Shown here one piece after another: positions 14,056 through 27,785 of a DNA stretch of 64,000 nucleotides. The notes under the pieces are model-generated. The model was not told the DNA's origin. It searched no databases and worked only from the letters and a program-made list of their open reading frames with translations. Source of the DNA: Sneathiella chinensis. GTDB taxonomy: Bacteria; Pseudomonadota; Alphaproteobacteria; Sneathiellales; Sneathiellaceae. The position numbers and the translations under genes were made by a program. The DNA lies in the NCBI RefSeq assembly GCF_012720115.1, contig NZ_VNWN01000004.1:124001-188000 (forward strand). Direction: 5' to 3'. Numbering within the stretch: position 1 is the first letter of the stretch; every line of letters begins with the position of its first letter.

Positions 14056-14082
14056 TCCGGTTCGGGCGGGATTGTGTCTTTG

Positions 14083-14871
14083 ATGGCTTTATTGCGTGTG
14101 ACCGTGGTTTTGGTGGGGGCCTTTCTGGCTATGGTCGGATCGGCGCAGGCCACCCAACCGATGAAGAACGGTATTCTTCAGGCTCCCCTTGGTATCAAGG
14201 GGAAGGATGACCGCTCCCCGGTGGATATTACCGCCTTTCCGTGGCGAACCATCGGTCGGGTCAACCGGTCCGGCAATTTTTGTACAGGCATTCTTGTTGC
14301 CGAAGATCAGGTCCTGACGGCGGCCCATTGTTTCTGGAACAAGCGCACAAAACGGTGGAGCGGGGCAACGGAATTTCATTTTGTCGCCGGGTATGACAAG
14401 GGGCGGTATGCGGGGCATGCCCGGGGGCTTCGATATCGGACGGCCTTTGCGGCCCTGCCGGATCTGTCTGTACAGCCGTTGCCACGGGACAAGGACTGGG
14501 CGGTATTGACGCTGGACAAGCCCTTGGGGAAGACCTTTGGTTTTGCCGAGGTATCCCGCCGCCGCCTGTCAGAGGATGCACTCGCAACCGCTGATCTGGT
14601 GCAGGCAGGATACAGCCGGGATTATTCCCATATTCTGACGGTTCATGAAAAATGCCGGATAACCCACACAGCAAGACTGGATAAAGGGCAGGCACCGATC
14701 TATTTTCATCAGTGCGATGCCACAAACGGGGATTCCGGTTCGCCCATTTTTGTGAAGGATGGGGCAGGGTATCGCCTGATTGGCTTGCATTCTGCCACGG
14801 CGCGTCTGAAAACCGGCGAGGTCAGTGGGCTTGCCATCCCCAGTTCCGTATTTTACCCGTATCTCAAATAA
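14083..14871 (+). CDS. Secreted trypsin-like serine protease (S1 family)
   Basis: About 262 residues with a Sec signal peptide ending near GSAQA. The mature protein carries the full chymotrypsin-fold triad: His in VLTAAHC, Asp in KDWAVLTLD, and Ser in NGDSGSP. FCTGILVAEDQVLTAAHC is the classic strand before the His. Expected location is the periplasm or outside. The start is either ATG 14083 or GTG 14074, three codons earlier; GGGCGGG lies close upstream. It follows the lipoprotein gene by 27 bp. The substrate is unknown. It lies 260 bp before the adhesin-like region, but there is no evidence of a link. Confidence 0.87.
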   Translation: MALLRVTVVLVGAFLAMVGSAQATQPMKNGILQAPLGIKGKDDRSPVDITAFPWRTIGRVNRSGNFCTGILVAEDQVLTAAHCFWNKRTKRWSGATEFHFVAGYDKGRYAGHARGLRYRTAFAALPDLSVQPLPRDKDWAVLTLDKPLGKTFGFAEVSRRRLSEDALATADLVQAGYSRDYSHILTVHEKCRITHTARLDKGQAPIYFHQCDATNGDSGSPIFVKDGAGYRLIGLHSATARLKTGEVSGLAIPSSVFYPYLK

Positions 14872-15134: not shown

Positions 15135-15671
15135 GTGTCCGATCGGGAGCGCATGGATGACATGCCGGGAATGCCCGGATCCGCTACAACAAAACAGATT
15201 GTTGTAAATAAGGGGGATGTTGTTCCGCTTGATGTAAGTGCGCCTGATAACGCCGATTTTATTACATCGGGGCAGGATTTGATTATCACGGTCGAGGCAA
15301 ACAGGGTTGTGCTGAAAGGCTTCGCGGGAATGGCTGATTTGCCAGACCCCCCTTCGTTGCAGTTTCAGGATGGCAAGGCATATTCAGCAGTGGATGTCCT
15401 GAAATGGACGGCTGAGTTCAAGGGTATTGATTTCATGTCAGACTCACAAGATGACCTGGTAGATCTGGATGCTTTGTTTGATATGCTGAACATCGCCGTC
15501 CGGGACGGGGTGGATGCCCTGGATTATGTCGCGGATGCAGCCGGGAACGGCGGCGTCCTTATTGTCAGGAATGACGCCTTGGCGGAGAGCGGTGTCTCTT
15601 CCAGTCTGGACGATCTTGGCGGGCCAATCTCCGATCTTGTGGATGATCCTTACAAGGCGGATGAGTCCTAG
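15135..15671 (+). CDS. Stand-alone protein resembling the N-terminal (retention-type) module of giant T1SS adhesins
   Basis: A 178-residue acidic protein with no signal peptide. Residues 20-90 (KGDVVPLDV, GQDLIITVEANRVVLKGF, PPSLQFQDGK) follow the pattern I know from N-terminal regions of large type I-secreted adhesins: a short beta-domain with V-x-L-x-G-[FY] followed by Pro and a D-G turn. DAAG at residues 134-137 loosely resembles the [TAP]AAG sites cut by LapG. There are no repeats and no obvious C-terminal secretion signal. The start is GTG 15135 (AGGA upstream) or ATG 15153. It ends at a strong terminator beside the LapG/exporter operon. It may be a truncated remnant, a decoy or a regulator. 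The assignment is inference. Confidence 0.55.
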   Translation: MSDRERMDDMPGMPGSATTKQIVVNKGDVVPLDVSAPDNADFITSGQDLIITVEANRVVLKGFAGMADLPDPPSLQFQDGKAYSAVDVLKWTAEFKGIDFMSDSQDDLVDLDALFDMLNIAVRDGVDALDYVADAAGNGGVLIVRNDALAESGVSSSLDDLGGPISDLVDDPYKADES

Positions 15672-15769: not shown

Positions 15770-17836
15770 TCAGGAGGGATTTTTGTCCTGCTCCAGCGAG
15801 TTTCTGAAATCCTCTCCTTCGGGGGACTGCAGGAAGTCGTCCAGTGCGGCGACCACATCCTGATCATACCGGTGTGGATTGCTGCGGAAGACTTCCATGG
15901 CTTCCTCAACGGAAACCTCCTGCCGGTAAGAGCGGGGGGAAATCCGGGCAATCAGGATATCGGCCATGCCCAAAATCCGGGCGGACATGGCAATTTCTTC
16001 CCCTTCAAGCTGTTTCGGGTATCCGGTCCCATCCTTGCGTTCATACATCTGGGCGACGGCCTCGACGATGGGGGCGTCCACTTCCATTTCCGCCAGAATG
16101 GACTCGGCGCTGGCCACATGCCCCCGCATGATGTCCATTTCCTCGTCGGTCAGGCGTCCGTCTTTTGTACGGATTTCCGACGGGATCGAGATTTTACCGA
16201 TCTGGGACAGGTTGGCGCCGGTTGCAATCGCCTGCCGGGTTTCTGTGGGAAGATCCATGACACGGGCGACATTGTTGGCCAGAACGCTCATCCGATGGGA
16301 ATGGTTGGCAAGATAGGGGTCGTTTGCCTCCAGCATGCGAACCAGAACCGAAATGGTTTTCTGACCCAGCCGTTCCTTCATCCGCTGGTGCTCGATAAAG
16401 TCCGTGATGTCACCGGCCACGGTGACGATCCCCATGAACAGTCCCTCGTCATCCATCAGGCGGGATTTTTCGATCCGCAGAATGCGGGTGCCATTATCGG
16501 TCTCCACTTCCATGATGGTATTCTGGGTCTGCTCGGTATCCAGAACCACCTGATTGAGGTCCCCCATGGCACGGGCGGCCTTCTCGCCAAACAGGTCGCG
16601 GTCGGTCTTGCCAGCAATGGACTGAACCGGGAAATTGACAAACCGGGCAAGTGACGGATTGGCATAGACATAGCGCCCGGCCGTATCGGTCAGTCCGATC
16701 AGGTCATCGATGGTGTTGTTGATGCTGCCAAGCAGGCGGCGCTGGGCGTTGATCTTATGGGCCAGTTCCTTGTATTGCTCGGCCATGGCCTTGTTGTTCT
16801 GGCTGCGCAGGGTCAGCCAGATGGCCGCAAGGATACTGAGAATGACCAGCACGGTGCTGACCGCAACGATCCATATGCCAACAGAATATCGCTCCAGCGG
16901 CTCCAGAGCCTCTTTCTCATGAATGCCTTGGGTGATGACCCAGTTGGTATTGCCAAGTTGCACGCCGACAGAATAGAGAGGGCCGTTTGTGGTTGAGATA
17001 TCCCGAAGCGCAAAGCGGGTGAAATCCGCTGTCATGCCGCTGGCTGGCTGTTTGGAGAAATAGGTCTCGGACTTGCTGTCCGCCATAAAGAACCGGTCGC
17101 CGTCCCGCTGGAACAGCCAGGTTTCTTCTCCTTCCATGGACAGGGCGGAAGGGCGGAGAAGTTCCTCGATCTTTTCGCGGGCAGAAACCGTCATGACCAT
17201 AATCCCGACGACGGCGGGGTTGGCCCCGGCCGCACTCTGCGCCTCAAGGATGGGAACCAGAAAATCAATCAGCAGGTCTTTTCCGCTCTCGCGGGCATTG
17301 ACGGCGGCAATCTCTGTCTGGCTGTAGTGCCGGACGGCAAGGTCCCGCTGTTCATCCGTCAGGGACGGTGATCCGGTGGACGCCAGATAGGCCCGGCCAT
17401 TGCGGCCAATGACATAGGCGGCGACCACGTTGTTCTGTTCGACAAAACTTGAGATGGCATTTTGCATGTAGGGAAGCTGGTTGGCCAGCGGGCGGGGCAG
17501 TTCCGCACTGTCAGACCGGTTGACCTCGTCTGCGAACAGGCGGAACAGGGGATGGCTGGCAATCTGGGAAGCCTTGCGCCCGGTGCTGTCAATCCAGGTG
17601 GTCATGACCTCGTTCTTGCCGGCAGCGGTGATCTCCTCGCGGGCCTGCAATTCGGCAAGCAGTTCCTCTTTCGCGTTCTGGATTGCAAAATCGGCTGTGA
17701 AATAGGCCCCAAGCGACAGAAGAACGGCAATCAGAATACCGATCCGAAGCGGTGTCCGAAAAGACGAAGAACGCTCCTTGGGAGCTTCCCTGGACATGAT
17801 ATTGTTCAGTTCAAGGTTTGCGGTTAGTTCAGTCAT
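15770..17836 (-). CDS. Membrane sensor: Cache-like periplasmic domain, PAS, degenerate HD-GYP (sensor 1)
   Basis: 688 residues from ATG 17836. TM1 about 31-49, a periplasmic Cache-like domain about 55-315, TM2 about 319-344, PAS about 370-485 and an HD-GYP-type domain about 495-650. In that domain HSHRM (His512) and RGH (His573) remain, and the later Asp626 and GTGYP are present. But the HD pair is SQ (residues 544-545, NLSQIGK) and the HH of HHE is replaced (MYERKDG), so phosphodiesterase metal sites are incomplete. The ATG overlaps the end of the preceding LapG-like gene by 8 bp. A c-di-GMP-binding receptor controlling LapG, as LapD does, is my inference. Alternatives are a residual enzyme or an unrelated signal sensor. 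Confidence 0.85.
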   Translation of the reverse strand: MTELTANLELNNIMSREAPKERSSSFRTPLRIGILIAVLLSLGAYFTADFAIQNAKEELLAELQAREEITAAGKNEVMTTWIDSTGRKASQIASHPLFRLFADEVNRSDSAELPRPLANQLPYMQNAISSFVEQNNVVAAYVIGRNGRAYLASTGSPSLTDEQRDLAVRHYSQTEIAAVNARESGKDLLIDFLVPILEAQSAAGANPAVVGIMVMTVSAREKIEELLRPSALSMEGEETWLFQRDGDRFFMADSKSETYFSKQPASGMTADFTRFALRDISTTNGPLYSVGVQLGNTNWVITQGIHEKEALEPLERYSVGIWIVAVSTVLVILSILAAIWLTLRSQNNKAMAEQYKELAHKINAQRRLLGSINNTIDDLIGLTDTAGRYVYANPSLARFVNFPVQSIAGKTDRDLFGEKAARAMGDLNQVVLDTEQTQNTIMEVETDNGTRILRIEKSRLMDDEGLFMGIVTVAGDITDFIEHQRMKERLGQKTISVLVRMLEANDPYLANHSHRMSVLANNVARVMDLPTETRQAIATGANLSQIGKISIPSEIRTKDGRLTDEEMDIMRGHVASAESILAEMEVDAPIVEAVAQMYERKDGTGYPKQLEGEEIAMSARILGMADILIARISPRSYRQEVSVEEAMEVFRSNPHRYDQDVVAALDDFLQSPEGEDFRNSLEQDKNPS

Positions 17837-18542
17837 CGCGTGGTTTCTCCGTCGCGCCGGCAATCTCGGTTGCCTCATTGGCTACATGCGCCCATCGGGT
17901 GGTTTCGTTCACCGAATAGAACGGCACGTAATATTTGACATTCTTTTCCTGCTGGACCGTGTCATTCTGGGAATCCAGAACCAGACGGCGGCCATTTTCC
18001 CGGACATACAGGATGGTGTGGTTCTGGCCGCGCAACACGTCGCTTGTCACAACGATGCGCATATTGGCAACGGGCACACCCAGCTCTTTCAGGCTGATAT
18101 ATTTCATGATTGCGAAATCTTCGGAATCGCCGCCGTTGGTGATGAATTCCAGCGGGCTGGCCCAGTAATCCGCGTGGCCATAATTCTCCATGTCGGACAC
18201 ATGGCGCCACTTGTTGATGAACCTGTTGATCTCGCGAAGTTGGGTGGAACGCTCGGCCTCGGTCAGTTCCTGGATTTTGGCCCGCCACAGGGTCATCTGT
18301 TGCGAGGCGCATTTCTGGATGTCCTGATCACACAGGCGGGCGGCCCGGTCGCTTTTCTTGAAATCGCCAATCACCCTTGTCCATTGCGGCAGGGCCTGCA
18401 AATCCCGCGAAGGGATTTCGACCGTACCGAACAGGCCGTCCGGCGGCGGAATATCCGCCATCGTGTTGGCCTGCGCGGACCCTGCCATCAGCAGGGACGC
18501 GGCAAGGGCAAAGGGAAGAAGTGTCGCTGATAGGGGCATCAT
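17829..18542 (-). CDS. LapG-like transglutaminase-fold protease homologue with Cys-to-Ser change
   Basis: 237 residues of the bacterial transglutaminase-like cysteine proteinase family (LapG type), with a signal peptide ending near GSAQA. The active-site region reads GGDSEDFA where the family has GDCED: the nucleophile is Ser140 (TCC, 18123-18125). His175 (QNHTILYV) and Asp190 (RLVLDSQ) are kept at the same spacing as in the second copy at 24777-25433. LapG cuts adhesins in the periplasm to release them. This copy is probably inactive as a Cys protease; it may bind substrate or sensor, or be a slow Ser enzyme. It overlaps the HlyD-type gene by 4 bp (ATGA) and sensor 1 by 8 bp, so the operon is tightly coupled. 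Confidence 0.87.
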   Translation of the reverse strand: MMPLSATLLPFALAASLLMAGSAQANTMADIPPPDGLFGTVEIPSRDLQALPQWTRVIGDFKKSDRAARLCDQDIQKCASQQMTLWRAKIQELTEAERSTQLREINRFINKWRHVSDMENYGHADYWASPLEFITNGGDSEDFAIMKYISLKELGVPVANMRIVVTSDVLRGQNHTILYVRENGRRLVLDSQNDTVQQEKNVKYYVPFYSVNETTRWAHVANEATEIAGATEKPRDD

Positions 18543-19879
18543 CTTTCCTTCAAGGCGTTGTCGCGGGTTTTCAGGATCGGCTTCAGGATGTAGTCCAGAA
18601 CGGATTTCTGTCCGGTCAGGGTATCCACGGACGCCACCATACCCGGAATGATCGGGTAGGTTTCATCGCCGCGCTTCAGATAGTTCTGCTCGGTGCGGAC
18701 AATGATCTTGTAGAAGCTGTCGCCGGTCTGCTCATCCACGGTGGTGTCGGCGCTGATCCGTTCCAGCTCGGCAGGTAACCCGCCATAGATGGAATAGTCA
18801 TAGGCCGTGATCTTGACGGTTGCCTTCTGTCCGGGGCGCAGGAAGGCGATATCGGACGGACGGATGCGGGCCTCTACCAGAAGAGAATCCTCAATCGGGA
18901 CAATTTCCACAATATCCTGTCCGGGCTGTACCACGCCGCCGATGGTTGAAATTTTCAGGTCCTTGACCGTCCCTTTTACCGGGGAGCGGACATCAGTCCG
19001 TACAACCCGGTCGCGGGCGGCCAGAATGGTCTGGCGGATGGCCTCAAACTCGGCCCGGGCGGTGCTCAGTTCCTGCGATGCAATACTGCGGAAGTTGAGG
19101 ATCTTTTCCTCGATCCTCTGGTTGGCTTCCTGCAGGGCGCCCTTGGCCCGGGGCAGGGCAAGCTGTGACGCGGAAATCTGGCCTTTCAGGTCATTGGCTT
19201 CCCGTTTCAGTTTCAGCAACTGAACCTTCGGAACAATGCCTTTCACGGCAAGGGGTTCGGTGATGGAAAGCTCTTCATTAACCAGAGCAAAGCTGGACCG
19301 CAGCTGGTTCAGGCGTCCGTTGATTTCGGCAATTTCCTGCTGGCGTTGCTGGGCCTGCTGGCGGAGGATGGCAATCTGTGACTGCAATTCCGCCTGCCGG
19401 GCGTTGTACAGGTTCTGTTCACGGACACTGATCTCGGCGCCTTCGGCAATCAGTTCCGGCGGAAAGGTAATGCCGGTCCCTTCGGCTTCTGCCTTGAGGC
19501 GGGCAATCCGGCCCATCAGGTTCAGGTAATTGGATTCAATCTCGCCAAAGCGGGCAGAAAAGCCGGTATCGTCGATGCGGAGCAGAATCTGGCCTTTCTC
19601 GACCGTTTCCCCTTCCCGCACCAGAAGTTCCTTCAGGATGCCGCCTTCCAGATTCTGGATGACCTGCACCTGACTGGACGGGATGACCTTGCCATCGCCG
19701 CGGGTGACTTCATCCAGAATGGCATTGTCCGCCCAGATATAGGCGGAAATGAAAAAGGCCACGATCCCGATCAGCAACAGGAAGGAACGCGGGTTGGGTC
19801 CCTGCATTTTTGCCGCCATCACATCCGAGGCAAAATCGGAATCGCTCCACTCAGCGTTGTTGGACATTTGCTTTTCCAT
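18539..19879 (-). CDS. Type I secretion membrane fusion protein (HlyD/LapC-like)
   Basis: 446 residues. A cytoplasmic N-terminus of about 30 residues is followed by one membrane helix (FLLLIGIVAFFISAYIWA) and GKVIPSSQVQVIQNLEGGIL, the standard HlyD biotinyl-lipoyl half-motif. Then come a long coiled coil with Gln-rich helices (about 150-300) and the C-terminal beta-barrel part with RTEQNYL and IIPGMVASVDTLTGQKSVLDYILKP (split motif typical of HlyD). It links the ABC exporter to TolC in the periplasm. Alternative start ATG 19867. Second gene of the exporter-LapG-sensor operon, starting just after the ABC gene. Confidence 0.95.
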   Translation of the reverse strand: MEKQMSNNAEWSDSDFASDVMAAKMQGPNPRSFLLLIGIVAFFISAYIWADNAILDEVTRGDGKVIPSSQVQVIQNLEGGILKELLVREGETVEKGQILLRIDDTGFSARFGEIESNYLNLMGRIARLKAEAEGTGITFPPELIAEGAEISVREQNLYNARQAELQSQIAILRQQAQQRQQEIAEINGRLNQLRSSFALVNEELSITEPLAVKGIVPKVQLLKLKREANDLKGQISASQLALPRAKGALQEANQRIEEKILNFRSIASQELSTARAEFEAIRQTILAARDRVVRTDVRSPVKGTVKDLKISTIGGVVQPGQDIVEIVPIEDSLLVEARIRPSDIAFLRPGQKATVKITAYDYSIYGGLPAELERISADTTVDEQTGDSFYKIIVRTEQNYLKRGDETYPIIPGMVASVDTLTGQKSVLDYILKPILKTRDNALKER

Positions 19880-19887
19880 CGTCTTCG

Positions 19888-22257
19888 TTACCCCTGCTGC
19901 GCTTTTTGAGGCGCCTGACTTGTCCGGTCGGCCTTGCGACCGATCTTCAACACTTCATCCCGTGGTCCGTCTGCAACCACCTTGCCGTTTCCAAGAACGA
20001 TAATCCGGTCCACCAGCGAGAACAGGGATGTCCGGTGAGTGACCAGAATAAGGGTCTTGTCCTTGCTGAAATCCTTCAACCGGCTGATGAAACGACGTTC
20101 GGAATTGAGGTCCATGGAACTGGTCGGTTCATCAAACATCAGGATGGGCGGGTTGGGCAGCAGGGAACGGGCGAGGCCCATACACTGGCGTTGGCCGCCT
20201 GACAGGGTGGCGCCCTTTTCGCCGACCTGAAGGTCATATCCGTGCGGATGCCGGCTGATAAAGTCATGAACACCGGCCAGCTTGGAGGCGCGCAGGACCA
20301 TGTCGTCATCGGCCTGTGGGTGGCCCATAGTGATATTCTGGCGCACGGTCCCCTGAAACAGGACGATATCCTGCATCACACTACCGATAGAGCGGCGAAT
20401 GTCGGACGGGTCAATTTGTCGGATATCGGTGCCATCGATCAGGACCGCGCCTTCATCCGGTTCGTACAGGTTGATCAGCAGCCGGGAAATGGTGGTCTTG
20501 CCGGACCCGACCGGCCCGATAATGCCCACCTTTTCCCCCGCCCGGATCTTGAACGATACATTGGAAAGGGCCGGCAGTTCTGTTCCCGGATATTTGAAGG
20601 TTACGTCCTTGAACTCCACATCGCCCTGAATGTTGGGGCGGCTGAGTTGCCGTTTTTCCGCAGCCCGTTCCACCGGCAGGGCCATGATCTGGTTCAGACC
20701 CTTGAGGGCGACCATGGCCTGATTGAGCCGGGTCAGAAGACCGGCAATCTGACCCAGGGGGGCCATTGTCCGTCCGGTCAGGATGGTACAGGCAATCAGG
20801 GCACCGATCGTGATGTTGGTATCCGGCTGTGTCATCAGCGTGACGCCATAGATAACCACAAGGATGGTGACCAGTTGCATGACGGCGGCCGACAGGTTGA
20901 TGCTGAGGCTGGCAAAGAAGCGGGAGGTTACGCTGGTCTTGGCGGTCTGCCCGACGAAGCGTTCCCATTCTTTTTGCATATGGCCTTCAACGCCGAGACT
21001 CTTGACAGTATCAAGGGCCGAGATGGTCTCGATAATGACGCCATGCTTTTGGGAGTTCTCGTCGGAGTTTTGGGAAACCGCCCGGCGCAGCGGCCATTGC
21101 AGGGCCAGCCCGATGCCGATCACCACCGGAATGGCGACGGCGGGAACAACCACAAGGGGGCCACCAATCAGATAGATGATGAACAGGAAGACGCCGAGGA
21201 ACGGCAGGTCAACCAGTGCGGTGATGGTGGCAGAGGTAAAGAAATCCCGTAAGGATTCAAATTCCCGAAGATGGTTGGCAAACGCCCCGGCAGAGGCGGG
21301 CCGGGCCTTGACCTGAAGGTTGAGGACCTGTTCGAAAATCCGGCTGGACAGAAGCACGTCGGCCCGTTTGCCCGCATTGTCCACGAAATAGGATCGCAGG
21401 GATTTCAGGATCAGGTCAAAACCGATCACCGTAATGATACCAAACGCCAGAACCCAAAGGGTTTCAAGGGCCTTGTTGGGGACCACCCTGTCATAGACAT
21501 TCATGATGAACAGGGGGCTGGCAATGGCAAAGCTGTTGATCAGGAAGGCGGCCAGAATCACCTGAAGATAAGTTGGCCAGAACTGGCGCAGGGTTCCCCA
21601 GAACCACGAGCCCTTGCGTTCCTGCAAACTTTCGTCCCGATCGACGCGGAACTTGAAGCCGGGTCGGACAAATATGGCATACCCGGCGTAAATCTTTTCC
21701 AGTTCCGCAAGGGGCAGGGTTTGGGACCCTTCGCCGGTCTCCGGGAAAATGACGACGGCCTTGTCGCCCTTCCGCTCCAGCAGGATACAGGCGCGCCGCC
21801 CTCGAATCAGCAGGACGGTTGGCAGGACCACTTCCGGAATCTTGTCCAACTTGCGGTTGGTGATCCGGGCACTGATGCCAACGCGCTGGGCGGCCCGGAC
21901 AAACAGGTCCGGTGTCAGGCAATTATCTTCCAGCGGCATGCCATAGATCAGGGCTTCAGGCGTGCGGGGGTCCTCGAAAACCTTGGTCAGGGCGACAAGG
22001 CAGCCCAGCAACGGATCATGGTCCGACTTGGCGACACTGGACAGTTCAACCTGCCAATCCCCGGAGGCGTCCTCGCTGGCCGGGGCGTCCTTCTGGCCAC
22101 CTTGCGCAGCGGCCTGCTTCAGGGATTGAAGGGCTTGCTCCCGAAAGGAACGCTCCGGCGAGGGAGACGATTGCTCCTTGTCCCTCACAGTCTCCGTCCC
22201 CGAGGAGAGTGATTCCTTTTCCAGAATGGAATCTGTTTTCTTACCATTTGTCGTCAT
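19888..22257 (-). CDS. Type I secretion ABC exporter with C39-like domain (LapB-like)
   Basis: 789 residues from ATG 22257 (GGA upstream; a GTG at 22278 is also possible). An N-terminal acidic linker of about 75 residues precedes a C39-peptidase-like domain (about 80-210). Where active C39 peptidases have their Cys, this domain reads DNCLTPDLF, which looks degenerate as in LapB and HlyB. A six-helix ABC membrane domain (about 240-520) and an ATPase domain follow: Walker A GPVGSGKTT, signature LSGGQRQ, Walker B ILMFDEPT, and H-loop THRTSL. It would export a large RTX or Lap-type adhesin. First gene of a minus-strand operon and divergent from tolC. No adhesin is encoded here. Confidence 0.94.
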   Translation of the reverse strand: MTTNGKKTDSILEKESLSSGTETVRDKEQSSPSPERSFREQALQSLKQAAAQGGQKDAPASEDASGDWQVELSSVAKSDHDPLLGCLVALTKVFEDPRTPEALIYGMPLEDNCLTPDLFVRAAQRVGISARITNRKLDKIPEVVLPTVLLIRGRRACILLERKGDKAVVIFPETGEGSQTLPLAELEKIYAGYAIFVRPGFKFRVDRDESLQERKGSWFWGTLRQFWPTYLQVILAAFLINSFAIASPLFIMNVYDRVVPNKALETLWVLAFGIITVIGFDLILKSLRSYFVDNAGKRADVLLSSRIFEQVLNLQVKARPASAGAFANHLREFESLRDFFTSATITALVDLPFLGVFLFIIYLIGGPLVVVPAVAIPVVIGIGLALQWPLRRAVSQNSDENSQKHGVIIETISALDTVKSLGVEGHMQKEWERFVGQTAKTSVTSRFFASLSINLSAAVMQLVTILVVIYGVTLMTQPDTNITIGALIACTILTGRTMAPLGQIAGLLTRLNQAMVALKGLNQIMALPVERAAEKRQLSRPNIQGDVEFKDVTFKYPGTELPALSNVSFKIRAGEKVGIIGPVGSGKTTISRLLINLYEPDEGAVLIDGTDIRQIDPSDIRRSIGSVMQDIVLFQGTVRQNITMGHPQADDDMVLRASKLAGVHDFISRHPHGYDLQVGEKGATLSGGQRQCMGLARSLLPNPPILMFDEPTSSMDLNSERRFISRLKDFSKDKTLILVTHRTSLFSLVDRIIVLGNGKVVADGPRDEVLKIGRKADRTSQAPQKAQQG

Positions 22258-23186
22258 TTGCGTATCCAAACCGGACACCGTACCGGCCTGTCAGGGCGGT
22301 CGCCTGCTGTTGCTGGCGGCACTGACATGGGCGCGGTATGCAGTATCCTTCTTTTCCAATATTCAGCCCGGAGTGGTGCAGGTGAGTGCACATACCCGGT
22401 GCCGGTTCCCCCAAAAGTAGCTGCGCAGTACAATTCTTGCCGGATGATCAGGTCCGGCCTTCTGCCTCAATAGAATGCGGATTTGGTGAAAATCGTATTA
22501 ACGTCTCCGTTGTTTCACTCGAAATATCGCCAATTTATAAAAAAATAATCCGTCAATTTCTCGCTTTAATGGTATTCCCCCGTCGGTTTTGAAGGGGGAC
22601 GCCCTCGCAATACAACTGTATCTTGGGCCGGATCACTCATTAAATACAACAAAATTAACCATAAATATATGGGTCCGCTATGGGGGCGTCTTTCGTGGGG
22701 CGGCATACCCATAAGGAGATTTATGTTGTTTTGTTTTCTTGGTATGAGGGTTTTTGGTTTCAAGGGTGCGAAAACCATGCCCTTGAAATGATGTAACAAT
22801 TTTATTAAAAACGATTCTATCGATTTAAGTCGCTGAAAATGCTTCTCTTCTTGTGCCAGGTGCAAGAAGGGTAGGGGTGTTTTGGGAGAACAGCTCCGGC
22901 CGTTGGGTGGGGTATGGTCTCCCGGTGGGGACTGTGAGGAGACGGGTTTCTTTTGTGTTGCGATTGAGCCACACAGCGCAGAAACACTGGGGAATATGTG
23001 CTGTGTGACACTAAAATGGGTTGTTTTCGCGCCCGGTGTGTGGGTAAATTTTGTCGAATTTGTTAAATGTATAAACGATTGTTGTTTGACATAAACTTGT
23101 TTTGCGAGTACTCGGTGGGGCAACATTCAAGCGTATTGGGTACCAGAAAACTACAAACGATATTACTTTAAATGTGGGAGAGGGGC
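22258..23186. other. Long AT-rich intergenic region between divergent exporter and tolC genes
   Basis: This roughly 930-bp gap is clearly more AT-rich than its surroundings, especially 22480-22840 and 23040-23170. It should hold the promoters of both divergent units. It contains a 22-codon ORF with a good Shine-Dalgarno (22723-22791) and an inverted repeat at its 3' end (22758-22788). A TTGACA-like hexamer at about 23086 could be a -35 for tolC. A long open frame on the minus strand (22566-23126) has no family likeness and Pro/His/Ser-rich composition, and I do not call it. Confidence 0.6.
22723..22791 (+). CDS. Possible 22-residue leader ORF
   Basis: ATG 22723 has AAGGAG 4 bp upstream; the frame runs 22 codons to TGA at 22789-22791. 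The peptide is hydrophobic at the start (MLFCFLGMRVFGF) and basic at the end. A perfect 9-bp inverted repeat TTTCAAGGG/CCCTTGAAA (22758-22766 / 22780-22788) covers its last codons. This could be a leader peptide with an attenuator-like hairpin in front of tolC. It could also be chance in AT-rich DNA. Confidence 0.25.
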   Translation: MLFCFLGMRVFGFKGAKTMPLK

Positions 23187-24527
23187 ATGATGTCCAGATT
23201 GTCAGCGAGTAGCACGCGCAGGGTTGTTACGGCGAGTGTTATGGCGACAGTGCTTGGAAGTATTGCAGTTTCTGCGCCGGTTCATGCCGGTTCCTTGGCC
23301 GAAGCTGTACAGAGTACCGTGATGAATTATCCGGAAATTGGCGAGGCGTCCGCAAACCGCCGTGCCATTGACCAGGAACTCGAGCAAGCACACGGCCTTT
23401 ACTATCCTTCCATTGATCTTGCCGCCGGGGGTGGTAAGGAATGGACGGATACGGTTTCTATCGATGACAAGTGGCTGACCCGAACCGAGGGCAGCATCTC
23501 ATTGACACAAACCCTTCTGGATTTTGGCGCCCGCGAAGCCGAGGTTGAACGTCAGTCCGCCCGTGTCGATGGCGCCGCCTACCGGGTTCGGGAACGGGCC
23601 GAGGCCATTGGCCTTGACGCAGTTCAGGCCTATCTGGATGTTCTCCGCAATCTGGAAATTGTGAACCTTGCGACGGAAAATCTTGAAATTCACAAACGCA
23701 CGCTGAAGGAAATCAACGACCGCGTTGATGCCGGACAGAGTGGTGTCGGGGATGTCCAGCAGACGGAAGCCCGTGTTGCCGCCGCCGAGGACACCCTTGT
23801 CGAGACAATGCGTCAGCTTGATAACGCAGAGATCGCGTATCGCCGCATTGTCGGGGAAGCCCCGATGAATCTCGAACTGCCGGAATTCAATGACGGTGTT
23901 CTGCCCGCCAATCTGGAAGACATCATCACAATCGGTCTGGAAAGCAACCCGGATATCCGCTTTGCTCGTTCCGACCTGAAAACTTCCGAAGCCGAAATCA
24001 AGGCTGCCGAAGCCAACTTCTACCCGACCGTTAATCTGGAACTGGATGCAAACGCCAATAACGATACGGACGGTGTGAAGGGACATAACGACGATTTCAC
24101 CGCGATGGTTCGTCTGCGTTACAACCTGTACCGCGGTGGTATCGATCTGGGCCGTCAGCGGGAAGCGGTTGAGCGTAAGTCCGAAACCCAGCAACGTGTT
24201 GCCCGCTTTGAACGTCTGGTCGAAGAGGAAATCCGCCAGAGCTGGAGCTCTCTGGCCCGCTCGCAAGGCCGTGCCGCAGCGCTAAGCGATCAGGTTGTTG
24301 CCAACGGTCAGGTGGCTTCCACTTACCGTCAGGAATTCCAGATCGGACAGCGGGACCTGCTGGATATGCTGGATGCGGATAATGAACTGTTCAACTCCCG
24401 GACAAGTCTGGCAACGGTTGAATATTCCGTTCTGTTCGCGAAATACCGCCTGCTGGCAACTATGGGTCGTCTGAACAGCACATTGGGCGTAACCCTGCCA
24501 GAGGAAGCCTTGCCGAATAACAGCTAA
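23187..24527 (+). CDS. TolC-family outer membrane channel (LapE-like)
   Basis: About 446 residues. A signal peptide ends near APVHA, followed by SLAEAVQSTVMNYPEIGEASANRR, the normal start of a TolC-family protein. Two outer-membrane-factor repeats follow, with long periplasmic helices rich in Gln/Ala/Glu and LRYNLYRGGIDLGRQREA in the second. It forms the outer-membrane exit for the type I exporter encoded divergently. I prefer ATG 23187, preceded by GGGAGAGG; ATG 23172 is in frame upstream. A strong terminator follows. Its separate promoter suggests independent control from the exporter operon. Confidence 0.95.
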   Translation: MMSRLSASSTRRVVTASVMATVLGSIAVSAPVHAGSLAEAVQSTVMNYPEIGEASANRRAIDQELEQAHGLYYPSIDLAAGGGKEWTDTVSIDDKWLTRTEGSISLTQTLLDFGAREAEVERQSARVDGAAYRVRERAEAIGLDAVQAYLDVLRNLEIVNLATENLEIHKRTLKEINDRVDAGQSGVGDVQQTEARVAAAEDTLVETMRQLDNAEIAYRRIVGEAPMNLELPEFNDGVLPANLEDIITIGLESNPDIRFARSDLKTSEAEIKAAEANFYPTVNLELDANANNDTDGVKGHNDDFTAMVRLRYNLYRGGIDLGRQREAVERKSETQQRVARFERLVEEEIRQSWSSLARSQGRAAALSDQVVANGQVASTYRQEFQIGQRDLLDMLDADNELFNSRTSLATVEYSVLFAKYRLLATMGRLNSTLGVTLPEEALPNNS

Positions 24528-24776: not shown

Positions 24777-25433
24777 CTAGTTGACAGCCGGCTTGTGGCG
24801 CCACCATCCCAATTCGTTGACCGAGTAGATGGGGCGGTAATGCTTGATTCGCTTGGCATCCACAACCAGTCCGATCTGATTGTCCAATATCATCTGTTTT
24901 CCATCCAGTTCAACAGCAAGAATGGCATGGGCAATTCGCAGGTTCATATCCTGCAGGACAACGATTTTCATCTCTTCCGCCTTCCAGCCAAGCGCCCGGA
25001 GGGTGAAGTATTTTACGATGGCGTAATCCTCGCAATCGCCAAAGCGGGCAAAGAATTCCCGCGGGATTTCCCAGTAATCCTTTACCCCCCAGTTGATGGG
25101 GTCGAGGATATAGCGAAAGAGGTTGATGTAGGTGTTGACGCGTTCCAGTTGTTTGGCCTTGGGGGCGTCCTGCAACTCCTCAATCAGTTCTTCCCACTTC
25201 TTGTAGGCACAGGCGTTAAGCTGGCCGGAATCACAGTTTCCGGGGCGTTCCTTGTAGGTGTCCAGCACCTTTTGCCATTTGGGAAAGGGCTTCAGGTCTG
25301 TATAGGCGATTTCCCGAAACCCGAAGATGCCGTTTGCCGAGGCGTGGGGCGGTGCCACAAGGACACTCAGCCCGAAGGCCAGGGCCGACGAGAAAAGCAG
25401 CAATCGCGATTTTGGATGGTTGCGCTTTTTCAA
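24777..25433 (-). CDS. lapG: LapG-like periplasmic cysteine protease (catalytic residues intact)
   Basis: 218 residues of the bacterial transglutaminase-like cysteine proteinase family, with a signal peptide to about residue 33 (APPHASA). The catalytic residues are present: Cys134 in FGDCEDYA, His169 in RIAHAILAV and Asp184 in MILDNQ. The DCED setting also supplies the Asp/Glu side chains that bind Ca2+ in characterised LapG. The expected action is cleavage of a large adhesin near its N-terminus in the periplasm, releasing it from the cell surface. It is divergent from sensor 2 (225 bp between starts). Compared with the copy at 17829-18542 this is the likely active enzyme. Confidence 0.9.
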   Translation of the reverse strand: MKKRNHPKSRLLLFSSALAFGLSVLVAPPHASANGIFGFREIAYTDLKPFPKWQKVLDTYKERPGNCDSGQLNACAYKKWEELIEELQDAPKAKQLERVNTYINLFRYILDPINWGVKDYWEIPREFFARFGDCEDYAIVKYFTLRALGWKAEEMKIVVLQDMNLRIAHAILAVELDGKQMILDNQIGLVVDAKRIKHYRPIYSVNELGWWRHKPAVN

Positions 25434-25658: not shown

Positions 25659-27785
25659 ATGGCTGATATCGATAACGAGTTAGAAGAAAGGGGCAAGGTA
25701 AACCGCACCCTTTGGTTTTCAGCAGTTATTCTGCTTGCGGTCGTGGTGGCTGGCGTCTGGGGAACTGTTGCGTTTGTTGACAAACAACGCGAGAGGGAAC
25801 TTCAGAACTGGGAAATCAGGCTGGGGATCGTTGCCAATCACCGCAAGGAAAGTGTGGACAACTGGCTGGCCGAGCAGAAAAAGACCATTGCCTCACTGGC
25901 GGAGAATGCGTCCCTTCAGGTTTACCTGACCCAACTGGTTCTTGAGACAAGCGAGAATGGTAGTGAGATTTCTTCCGTGCCGGAAGCAGGCTATCTGATC
26001 AATCTTCTGAACAACCAGGCGGTGATTAGTGGTTTCTGGGAGCCGGAAGAGCCGGAGGTTCGTGCCAATGTGGCGCGGCCGGGGCGGGCCGGGATTGGCC
26101 TGACAGACCGGACCGGGCGCCTGCTGGTGTCCAGCGGCAGTATGCCGCCCATGAACCCGGCGATCCGGGCCGCACTGGCGGAGGCGGATGCCGGGGTTTC
26201 AGCCACAATCGATGTTTATGAAGGATTGAGCGGCGAGCCGACCATGGGCTTTGTTCATCCCGTCTTTGCGGTCCAGCAGGATGGGGACAAGGATAATGTG
26301 ATCGGCTTTATTGTCGGGATCCGCACCATATCGAATTCCCTGTTTCCGTTGCTGATCCAGCCGGGCGATACCCTGAAGACCGGGGAAACCTTTCTGGTCC
26401 GCGAAGATAACGGCCTGATTGAATATATTTCACCGCTGGCCGACGGCACATCGGCCCTGAAGCGGACGTTAAGCGGGGATGATCGGTTGGCGGCGGCCTT
26501 TGTGGTTGGCAAGCCCGGCGGTTTTGCAATCCTGAACAACTATCTTGGCGAAGAGGTTCTGGTGACCGGGCGCAAGATCAACGAAGCGCCGTGGTATCTG
26601 GTGCGCGAGGTCAGCACCCATGAGGCCCTGTCGGAAACCAACAACCGCCTGAATGTGATGCTGGGGGTCTTCCTGCTGCTGATCATCGGGGTCAGTGGCA
26701 CCCTTGTTGCGGTCTGGCGTCACGGGACGTCTCTTCGGGCGGCGGAACTGGCGCGTAAATACAAGGCAACGGCCGAGCATTTACGGGAAAAATCCGAATT
26801 TCTGCGGGTGGTGACCGACCAGCAACCCACCTCCATTGCCGTGTTCGATAAGGACAACCATTATACATTTGCCAACCGGATCGCGGCGGCCGACGCGGAT
26901 ATCGATCAGGATGAACTGATCGGCCGGAAGATCACCTCCATTCTGGGGAAAGAGACCTCTGCCAAGGTGCGTTCCATGTTGGATACGGCCCGTCAGGAAA
27001 ACACCCAGATTTCCGATGTGGTGACATTGGAGGACGAGGGGCGGCCCCGGGTGTTCAAGTCGGACATCATCCCGCTTCGGATAAACCAGAAAGACCCGGA
27101 AAGTGTTCTGGCTGTCATGCAGGATATTACGGATGTGGTTGCCGAGCGGCAGCGGCGCGAAAGTATGCTGCGCAGTCTGGTGTCCACACTGGTGGCCTTC
27201 GTGGACAAGCGCGACCCCTATTCGTCGAACCAGTCAAGGCGGGTGGCCGAAGTCGGGGTTGCCATTGCCGAGGAACTGGGGGCGTCTGACAAGGTTATCC
27301 AGACCGTTGATATTGCCGGGAACCTCATGAATATCGGTAAAATTCTTGTTCCTGTTTCTATCCTGACCAAGACAGGGGAACTGACCGATCAGGAAATGGA
27401 AGCCGTTCGGGATAGCCTCTATTCCAGTGCGGACCTTCTGGAAGGGGTCAAGTTCGACCTGCCGGTTGCCGAAACCCTGCGGCAGTTGCAGGAGCATTGG
27501 GATGGCAGCGGCCAACCCCGTGGCCTGTCCGGGATGGCCATCAACGAGCCCGCCCGTATCATCGCGGTTGCAAACGCGTTTGTTGGTATGGTCAGCCCGC
27601 GGTCTTACCGTCAGGCACTGGATATGAGCAAGGCGATCGAGATCCTGATGGACGGGGCGGACAAGCGCTTTGACCGGAAACCCGTCAGTGCGCTGATCAA
27701 CTATCTCGATAACAAGGGGGGCCGGGAACGTTGGTCCCACTTCGCGGAGATGCCGGAAGATTTGTCTGCGGAAAATGATGAATAA
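25659..27785 (+). CDS. Membrane sensor: Cache-like periplasmic domain, PAS, degenerate HD-GYP (sensor 2)
   Basis: 708 residues: TM1 17-40, a periplasmic Cache-like domain about 45-325 (GLTDRTGRLLVSSG within), TM2 331-353, PAS about 378-497 and an HD-GYP-type domain about 505-690. Every metal ligand position is changed: NQSRRV has Gln525 for His, NLMNIGK has Met-Asn (557-558) for HD, RDSLYS has Ser586 for His, QLQEHWDG lacks the HH, and IAVANAF has Asn639 for Asp. GYP itself reads GQP. It should be catalytically dead. Same architecture as sensor 1 and divergent from the intact lapG. A nucleotide-binding LapD-like role is inferred. A terminator follows. Confidence 0.87.
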   Translation: MADIDNELEERGKVNRTLWFSAVILLAVVVAGVWGTVAFVDKQRERELQNWEIRLGIVANHRKESVDNWLAEQKKTIASLAENASLQVYLTQLVLETSENGSEISSVPEAGYLINLLNNQAVISGFWEPEEPEVRANVARPGRAGIGLTDRTGRLLVSSGSMPPMNPAIRAALAEADAGVSATIDVYEGLSGEPTMGFVHPVFAVQQDGDKDNVIGFIVGIRTISNSLFPLLIQPGDTLKTGETFLVREDNGLIEYISPLADGTSALKRTLSGDDRLAAAFVVGKPGGFAILNNYLGEEVLVTGRKINEAPWYLVREVSTHEALSETNNRLNVMLGVFLLLIIGVSGTLVAVWRHGTSLRAAELARKYKATAEHLREKSEFLRVVTDQQPTSIAVFDKDNHYTFANRIAAADADIDQDELIGRKITSILGKETSAKVRSMLDTARQENTQISDVVTLEDEGRPRVFKSDIIPLRINQKDPESVLAVMQDITDVVAERQRRESMLRSLVSTLVAFVDKRDPYSSNQSRRVAEVGVAIAEELGASDKVIQTVDIAGNLMNIGKILVPVSILTKTGELTDQEMEAVRDSLYSSADLLEGVKFDLPVAETLRQLQEHWDGSGQPRGLSGMAINEPARIIAVANAFVGMVSPRSYRQALDMSKAIEILMDGADKRFDRKPVSALINYLDNKGGRERWSHFAEMPEDLSAENDE

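Follow-up and report, generated by a model that had tools for sequence, protein, structure and literature searches.

The genome of Sneathiella chinensis encodes, within a type 1 exporter operon, a LapG-fold protein (LapG') with serine (Ser140) at the position of the catalytic cysteine, and its gene, lapG', is under strong purifying selection. The gene was analysed in a window of 64,000 nucleotides (contig NZ_VNWN01000004.1, positions 124,001 to 188,000), which also holds a second copy with the cysteine. The preferred reading, with a probability of roughly 0.55, is that lapG' is a catalytically dead, exporter-linked LapG/DvhG paralogue in a Dvh-type c-di-GMP/adhesin circuit, whose product would be periplasmic and would bind the neighbouring sensor 1. 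A sequence-only reading of the same DNA had noticed the serine and had lacked the frame of a Dvh-type circuit with a dead paralogue, in which the locus is now placed by the resemblance of both neighbouring sensors to DvhD. S. chinensis is a marine bacterium, and a LapG-type enzyme cuts the surface adhesin loose.

Organization of the locus

Genes and residues of the locus, in window coordinates:

15153..15671, forward: small conserved gene; in S. chinensis its product joins a retention-like module to a T1SS C-terminal signal
15770..17836, reverse: sensor 1, DvhD-like dCache-PAS-degenerate HD-GYP receptor (DvhD structures 9rc0, 9rbz, 9rc2)
17829..18542, reverse: lapG', exporter-linked LapG/DvhG-fold putative pseudo-protease, 237 aa (PF06035, E=1.3e-20)
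17973..17975, reverse: Asp190 of lapG', former triad (alignment)
18018..18020, reverse: His175 of lapG', former triad (alignment)
18120..18122, reverse: Glu141 of lapG', calcium-ligand position, kept in the window copy (alignment)
18123..18125, reverse: Ser140 codon TCC, at the catalytic Cys position of lapG' (alignment of all copies)
18126..18128, reverse: Asp139 of lapG', calcium-ligand position, kept in the window copy (alignment)
18539..19879, reverse: HlyD-type membrane fusion protein of the type 1 exporter (TIGR01843, E=3.5e-125)
19888..22278, reverse: LssB/LapB-type ABC exporter with C39-like N-terminal domain (TIGR03375, E=1.7e-285; Peptidase_C39, 2e-5)
23172..24527, forward: TolC-type outer membrane channel (TIGR01844, E=2.2e-91)
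24777..25433, reverse: active-type LapG (Cys copy), TTG start (motif GDCEDYA in all genus copies)
25032..25034, reverse: catalytic Cys134 codon TGC of the Cys copy (sequence)
25659..27785, forward: sensor 2, second DvhD-like PAS-degenerate HD-GYP receptor (9rc0, E=2.5e-43)

Four bases are shared between lapG' and hlyD (stop/start at 18539-18542), and eight between lapG' and sensor 1 (sensor 1 ATG at 17836; lapG' stop at 17829-17831). Because of these overlaps, hlyD, lapG' and sensor 1 are probably translationally coupled, with the ABC gene just upstream, which supports the earlier proposal of cotranslation with the exporter. The N-terminus of the lapG' product is signal-peptide-like. Only two PF06035 genes were found in the genome, lapG' and the Cys copy, both above the Pfam cut-off. 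The gene order sensor1-lapG'-HlyD-ABC / TolC-lapG-sensor2, with the two copies about 6.5 kb apart, was seen in all Sneathiella loci assembled far enough and in the sister genus (G025). A gene for a trypsin-like serine protease with a signal-peptide-like N-terminus (14074-14871, forward) adjoins the locus.

Classification and active site

The AF2 model of lapG' has a core pLDDT of >90, and its best Foldseek match was the LapG of L. pneumophila (4fgq, E=4.7e-12); fold and BTLCP profile (PF06035, C93) thus both assign the protein to the family. When compared with active BTLCPs, it lacks the catalytic Cys, whereas His175, Asp190 and the calcium ligands D139 and E141 are present. Against NCBIfam NF045674 (LapG equivalog, cut-off 320 bits) lapG' scored 89.9 bits and the Cys copy 84.9 bits; with both so far under the cut-off, the two copies are regarded as LapG-fold relatives, not as gammaproteobacterial LapG.

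Re-reading of the 237-aa gene confirmed Ser140 in GGDSEDFA (TCC) and, in the second copy, Cys134 in FGDCEDYA (TGC). The identical spacing of the other triad residues held as well, with 35 residues from the nucleophile position to His and 15 from His to Asp in both copies.

Among characterized relatives, the C192S variant of HvyA, an alphaproteobacterial BTLCP of Caulobacter, is produced and exported yet has no function (PMC4241560), LapG C135A leaves LapA uncut (PMC3032545), and DvhG is inactive as C317A and also as D316A/E318A, which affects the equivalents of the calcium-ligand positions 139 and 141 (PMC13090378). LapG' is read as non-proteolytic because these mutants are inactive. For the window's LapG' taken alone we infer as much, its calcium ligands, His and Asp being kept; as nothing but the Cys is missing from its catalytic and calcium-ligand residues, residual hydrolase activity is conceivable for this protein.

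Conservation and selection

LapG-like matches occurred in 26 of 26 genomes of the order, and the exporter-linked copy is present in the assembly of 25. G017 showed the Cys copy only, in an assembly that is 56% complete. The family search returned the exporter-linked copy only in G009, G011 and G024, and the Cys copy only in G013, where the exporter-linked copy is interrupted by a contig end.

At the nucleophile position, the 29 near-full-length exporter-linked sequences of the clade that contains lapG' had serine (26), threonine (1), proline (1) or alanine (1) and never cysteine, whereas cysteine was found in 102 of 102 active homologues, a difference beyond chance that supports the pseudo-protease proposed in the sequence-only reading. 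The question raised there, whether Ser is fixed in homologues beside HlyD-type genes, is answered in part: the residue is always other than Cys, but Ser is not invariant. The occurrence of Cys in close relatives, named there as a refutation, was not observed in any exporter-linked copy of the clade. A sequencing error at the Ser140 codon is ruled out by the fixation of non-Cys residues in relatives.

Sneathiella falls into two halves by the motif around this position: one half, joined by the early-branching members of the second, has GDSED, the remaining Sneathiella have mostly GGSRD, GRSRD or GGSKD, and G025 has GDPLD. Other alphaproteobacterial lineages have GDSED (L087-L089), GGSEN (L091), GDTVD (L092) and GGAEA (L094). 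In the Cys copy all genus members share one motif (see the list above). The 31 columns that are at least 95% conserved in the 102 active homologues were scored in the 29 Cys-less sequences. Clear losses (fraction kept) were C140 (0), Y114 (0.10), Y126 (0.38), A176, the residue beside His175 (0.43), and D125 (0.52); the calcium-ligand positions D139 and E141 were kept at 0.66 each, i.e., each is gone in about one third of the clade. Retained at 100% were the structural columns W54, C71/C78, W86, N106, N110, W127, P130, G138, K147, D168, D190, Y205, P207 and W217, and most of the remaining columns were at or near 100%. The triad His is kept in all of these copies except L051 (Gln).

Pairwise dN/dS was about 0.03-0.11 for lapG' and 0.04-0.08 for the Cys copy; exceptions were the pairs L087-L089 and L088-L089 among three near-identical MAG sequences, with dN/dS of 0.5-0.6 at very low dS (0.08). 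No internal stop was found in the family match of any of the genus copies. A decaying pseudogene is ruled out by the low dN/dS and the intact reading frames. That the nucleophile was lost and the gene is yet held by selection suggests that LapG' acts by binding, not by cutting.

Origin of the exporter-linked copy

A tree in which the motif columns were masked divided the LapG-like proteins into clade 1, linked to the exporter, and clade 2, linked to sensor 2 (split support 100/99), which rules out that the Cys copy was duplicated in tandem recently. The Cys-less members form one clade inside clade 1 (bootstrap/SH-aLRT 84/90). Elsewhere in clade 1, several families have an intact GDCED and the order ABC-HlyD-LapG-sensor1 (L174, L176, L179-L183, L188, L193). 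Since the other clade-1 members are intact Cys proteases and the dead ones are a single clade, the nucleophile was most likely lost once. As judged from this tree, the sequence-only reading of the two copies has to be corrected: the Ser copy is the ancestral exporter-linked copy, with catalysis lost, and the Cys copy belongs to a separate, old clade linked to sensor 2.

Where the clade-1 copy is live, most genomes show no clade-2 copy. Lineages with the dead copy generally have one (adequately assembled Sneathiella, G025, G407, G410, G411); a sensor2-type copy was not found in G406, G408 and G409, which are MAGs of related lineages and possibly incomplete. Coexistence alone does not kill the protease, as G172 and G349 hold live copies of both clades.

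Other apparently dead BTLCPs were encountered, with Asp (G203), Ser plus His-to-Arg (G168/G266), Glu (G411) or Arg (G032); Cys-less BTLCP genes are located at L178:8109-8885, L255, L261 and L205. The Asp variant of G203 (L178) adjoins a DvhD-like sensor and has no ABC or HlyD match within the 18 kb examined; a live copy is found at another place in G203.

Receptors

Sensor 1 matched the DvhD structures 9rc0 (PAS-HD-GYP, E=1e-53), 9rbz (3.6e-44) and 9rc2 (periplasmic dCache, 3e-12). Its HD motif is SQ, exactly as in DvhD, and several canonical c-di-GMP-site residues align (GYP Tyr620, Arg649, Tyr651); DvhD itself binds c-di-GMP without hydrolysis (PMC13090378). In sensor 2 only the cytoplasmic part was matched by 9rc0 (2.5e-43) and 9rbz. 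Sensor 2 (25659-27785) has GQP for GYP and MN for HD, and its c-di-GMP binding may differ from that of sensor 1. The earlier reading of the neighbouring sensors is accordingly amended to DvhD-type (degenerate HD-GYP) receptors. The PF16448 profile (LapD_MoxY_N) had no match in the genome, and control sequences were likewise unmatched.

Mean distances were 0.575 for lapG' and 0.72 for sensor 1, vs 0.365 and 0.394 for the Cys copy and sensor 2, so that the first pair evolves 1.6-1.8 times faster than the second. After removal of the exporter signal, the residual rates of lapG' in 15 related taxa correlated best with those of sensor 1 (0.51; Cys copy 0.12); this correlation is modest, and suggestive only, sensor 1 being equally correlated with other locus genes.

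Candidate substrate and small gene

A 2488-aa RTX adhesin, unlinked to the locus, is encoded on contig C12 of the same genome (L270:3221-10684) and was found through T1SS C-termini. Its N-terminal part has a BapA-prefix-like retention module (residues ~1-104; the matches are weak and do not reach the cut-off), together with a helix-like stretch and the sequence NPDLVAPAAGG. As this is the layout described for DvhG substrates (PMC13090378), L270 is a candidate, and a likely, substrate of the active LapG. NF033682 (LapA retention family), tried as a route to the adhesin, gave sub-cut-off matches only, and the one inspected was a FecR-like domain. A second large T1SS substrate with a TIGR03661 C-terminus lies at the end of contig C18 (L099:5463-10658) of the same genome and runs off the contig on its N-terminal side. 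Adhesin N-termini of subclade 2 (L290, L292-L299) have P[EQ]AG or PASG instead of PAAG, the presumed cleavage motif; in this Sneathiella subclade the calcium ligands are gone from most of the dead LapG copies.

The small gene (15153-15671, forward) is convergent with sensor 1 and also occurs at 21 Sneathiella loci (e.g., L043:1073-1477, L052:13200-13634); it was not found near active clade-1 loci or the relatives L087-L094. Its C-terminus carries the T1SS signal motif of RTX adhesins, V[DN]LDALFDxL...DES. In most species the frame (90-145 aa) holds hardly more than this signal; in S. chinensis it adds a retention-like module and a helix-like stretch but no [TAP]AAG site. Its product may act on the exporter as a plug, as bait or in regulation.

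Proposed role and alternatives

In the preferred reading, LapG' would enter the periplasm and bind the DvhD-like sensor 1 as a non-cutting partner. By binding sensor 1 and/or the retention module of the adhesin it would oppose the active LapG as shield or competitor; sensor 1 would set its action according to c-di-GMP, and sensor 2 would control the active LapG. Adhesin, sensor 1, sensor 2 and HlyD are all candidate partners. A more specific form of this proposal, which we hold to be somewhat doubtful, is that LapG' and sensor 1 are a pseudo-protease/receptor pair in the exporter, a c-di-GMP-set shield of the retention module against the cell's own releasing protease; retention would then be decided by two opposing LapG paralogues, not by sequestration of one, and in S. 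chinensis the mini-protein of the neighbouring small gene, which has no [TAP]AAG site, could be a non-cleavable bait for this pair.

LapG' may instead act on the sensors only, as a ligand or co-receptor of sensor 1 (or 2) that completes the signal or fills the site so that active LapG stays free, with the adhesin untouched. We consider this a tentative alternative: sensor 1 is the neighbour of lapG' at all assembled loci, the rates of both exceed those of the lapG/sensor2 pair, the clade-1-specific residues R171 and R216 are shared by dead and active members alike, and the losses sit at the active and calcium sites, as expected where substrate cutting is irrelevant, but sensor and substrate surfaces, which partly overlap in DvhG models (PMC13090378), are inseparable here. 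That lapG' is flanked by hlyD and the sensor in the exporter operon, and that the dead C39-like domain sets a precedent (PMC8277102), would also suit a periplasmic chaperone or exporter subunit that acts on HlyD/TolC in export or folding, outside the release circuit. Such a role is rather unlikely, as a c-di-GMP-type sensor is also paired with lapG' in every assembled locus and the Asp variant of G203 adjoins a sensor with no ABC or HlyD match in the 18 kb examined.

A serine hydrolase with active Ser140, perhaps of altered specificity, is suggested by the retained His and Asp and by the prevalence of serine (26/29). It is nevertheless quite improbable, given the Thr, Ala and Pro at the same position, the loss from roughly one third of the clade of calcium ligands required for activity, the Gln in place of His in L051, and the loss of HvyA function by the same Cys-to-Ser change (PMC4241560). 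The relaxed active-site columns are what a relic, a non-functional passenger in the operon, would show; with purifying selection in most pairs, no stop in the family match of genus copies and conservation across an order, this can nearly be dismissed.

Relation to known systems and implications

The locus resembles the Dvh system of Desulfovibrio vulgaris (PMC13090378) in its T1SS and in a BTLCP gene beside a dCache-PAS-degenerate HD-GYP receptor with HD changed to SQ (here sensor 1); the Dvh adhesin, a large protein that has a retention module, a targeting helix and a [TAP]AAG site, has its counterpart in L270, on a different contig from the operon. Unlike Dvh, the Sneathiella locus holds two LapG-type/receptor pairs, one with a protease that appears dead, and no long adhesin gene; the main text of PMC13090378 does not mention duplicat-, paralog- or serine. 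With Lap of Pseudomonas fluorescens (LapA/LapG/LapD) it shares a periplasmic BTLCP protease, a T1SS, a retention-module adhesin and control by a c-di-GMP receptor. However, LapD combines a LapD/MoxY periplasmic domain with GGDEF-EAL, whereas the Sneathiella receptors are of the HD-GYP type, and P. fluorescens has a single LapG. HvyA of Caulobacter crescentus is likewise an alphaproteobacterial BTLCP, with its Cys-to-Ser variant tested and inactive (PMC4241560), but acts on capsulation and requires its triad. In HlyB-type exporters a dead peptidase, the C39-like domain (CLD), keeps hold of the type 1 exporter substrate (PMC8277102); unlike LapG' it is cytoplasmic, fused to the ABC protein and of another peptidase family, so that the likeness is an analogy only.

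The literature searched, with many subscription papers outside its scope, contained no account of a pseudo-protease in the LapG family, and to our knowledge LapG' would be the first one. Cutting is the known output of LapG circuits, hence the interest of a dead member. The locus would extend the recently described Dvh architecture, with its HD-GYP receptor, to alphaproteobacteria, in exporter-linked and stand-alone forms. The same operon with a live or an apparently dead protease in related alphaproteobacteria would amount to a natural dead-mutant experiment on non-cutting roles of LapG.
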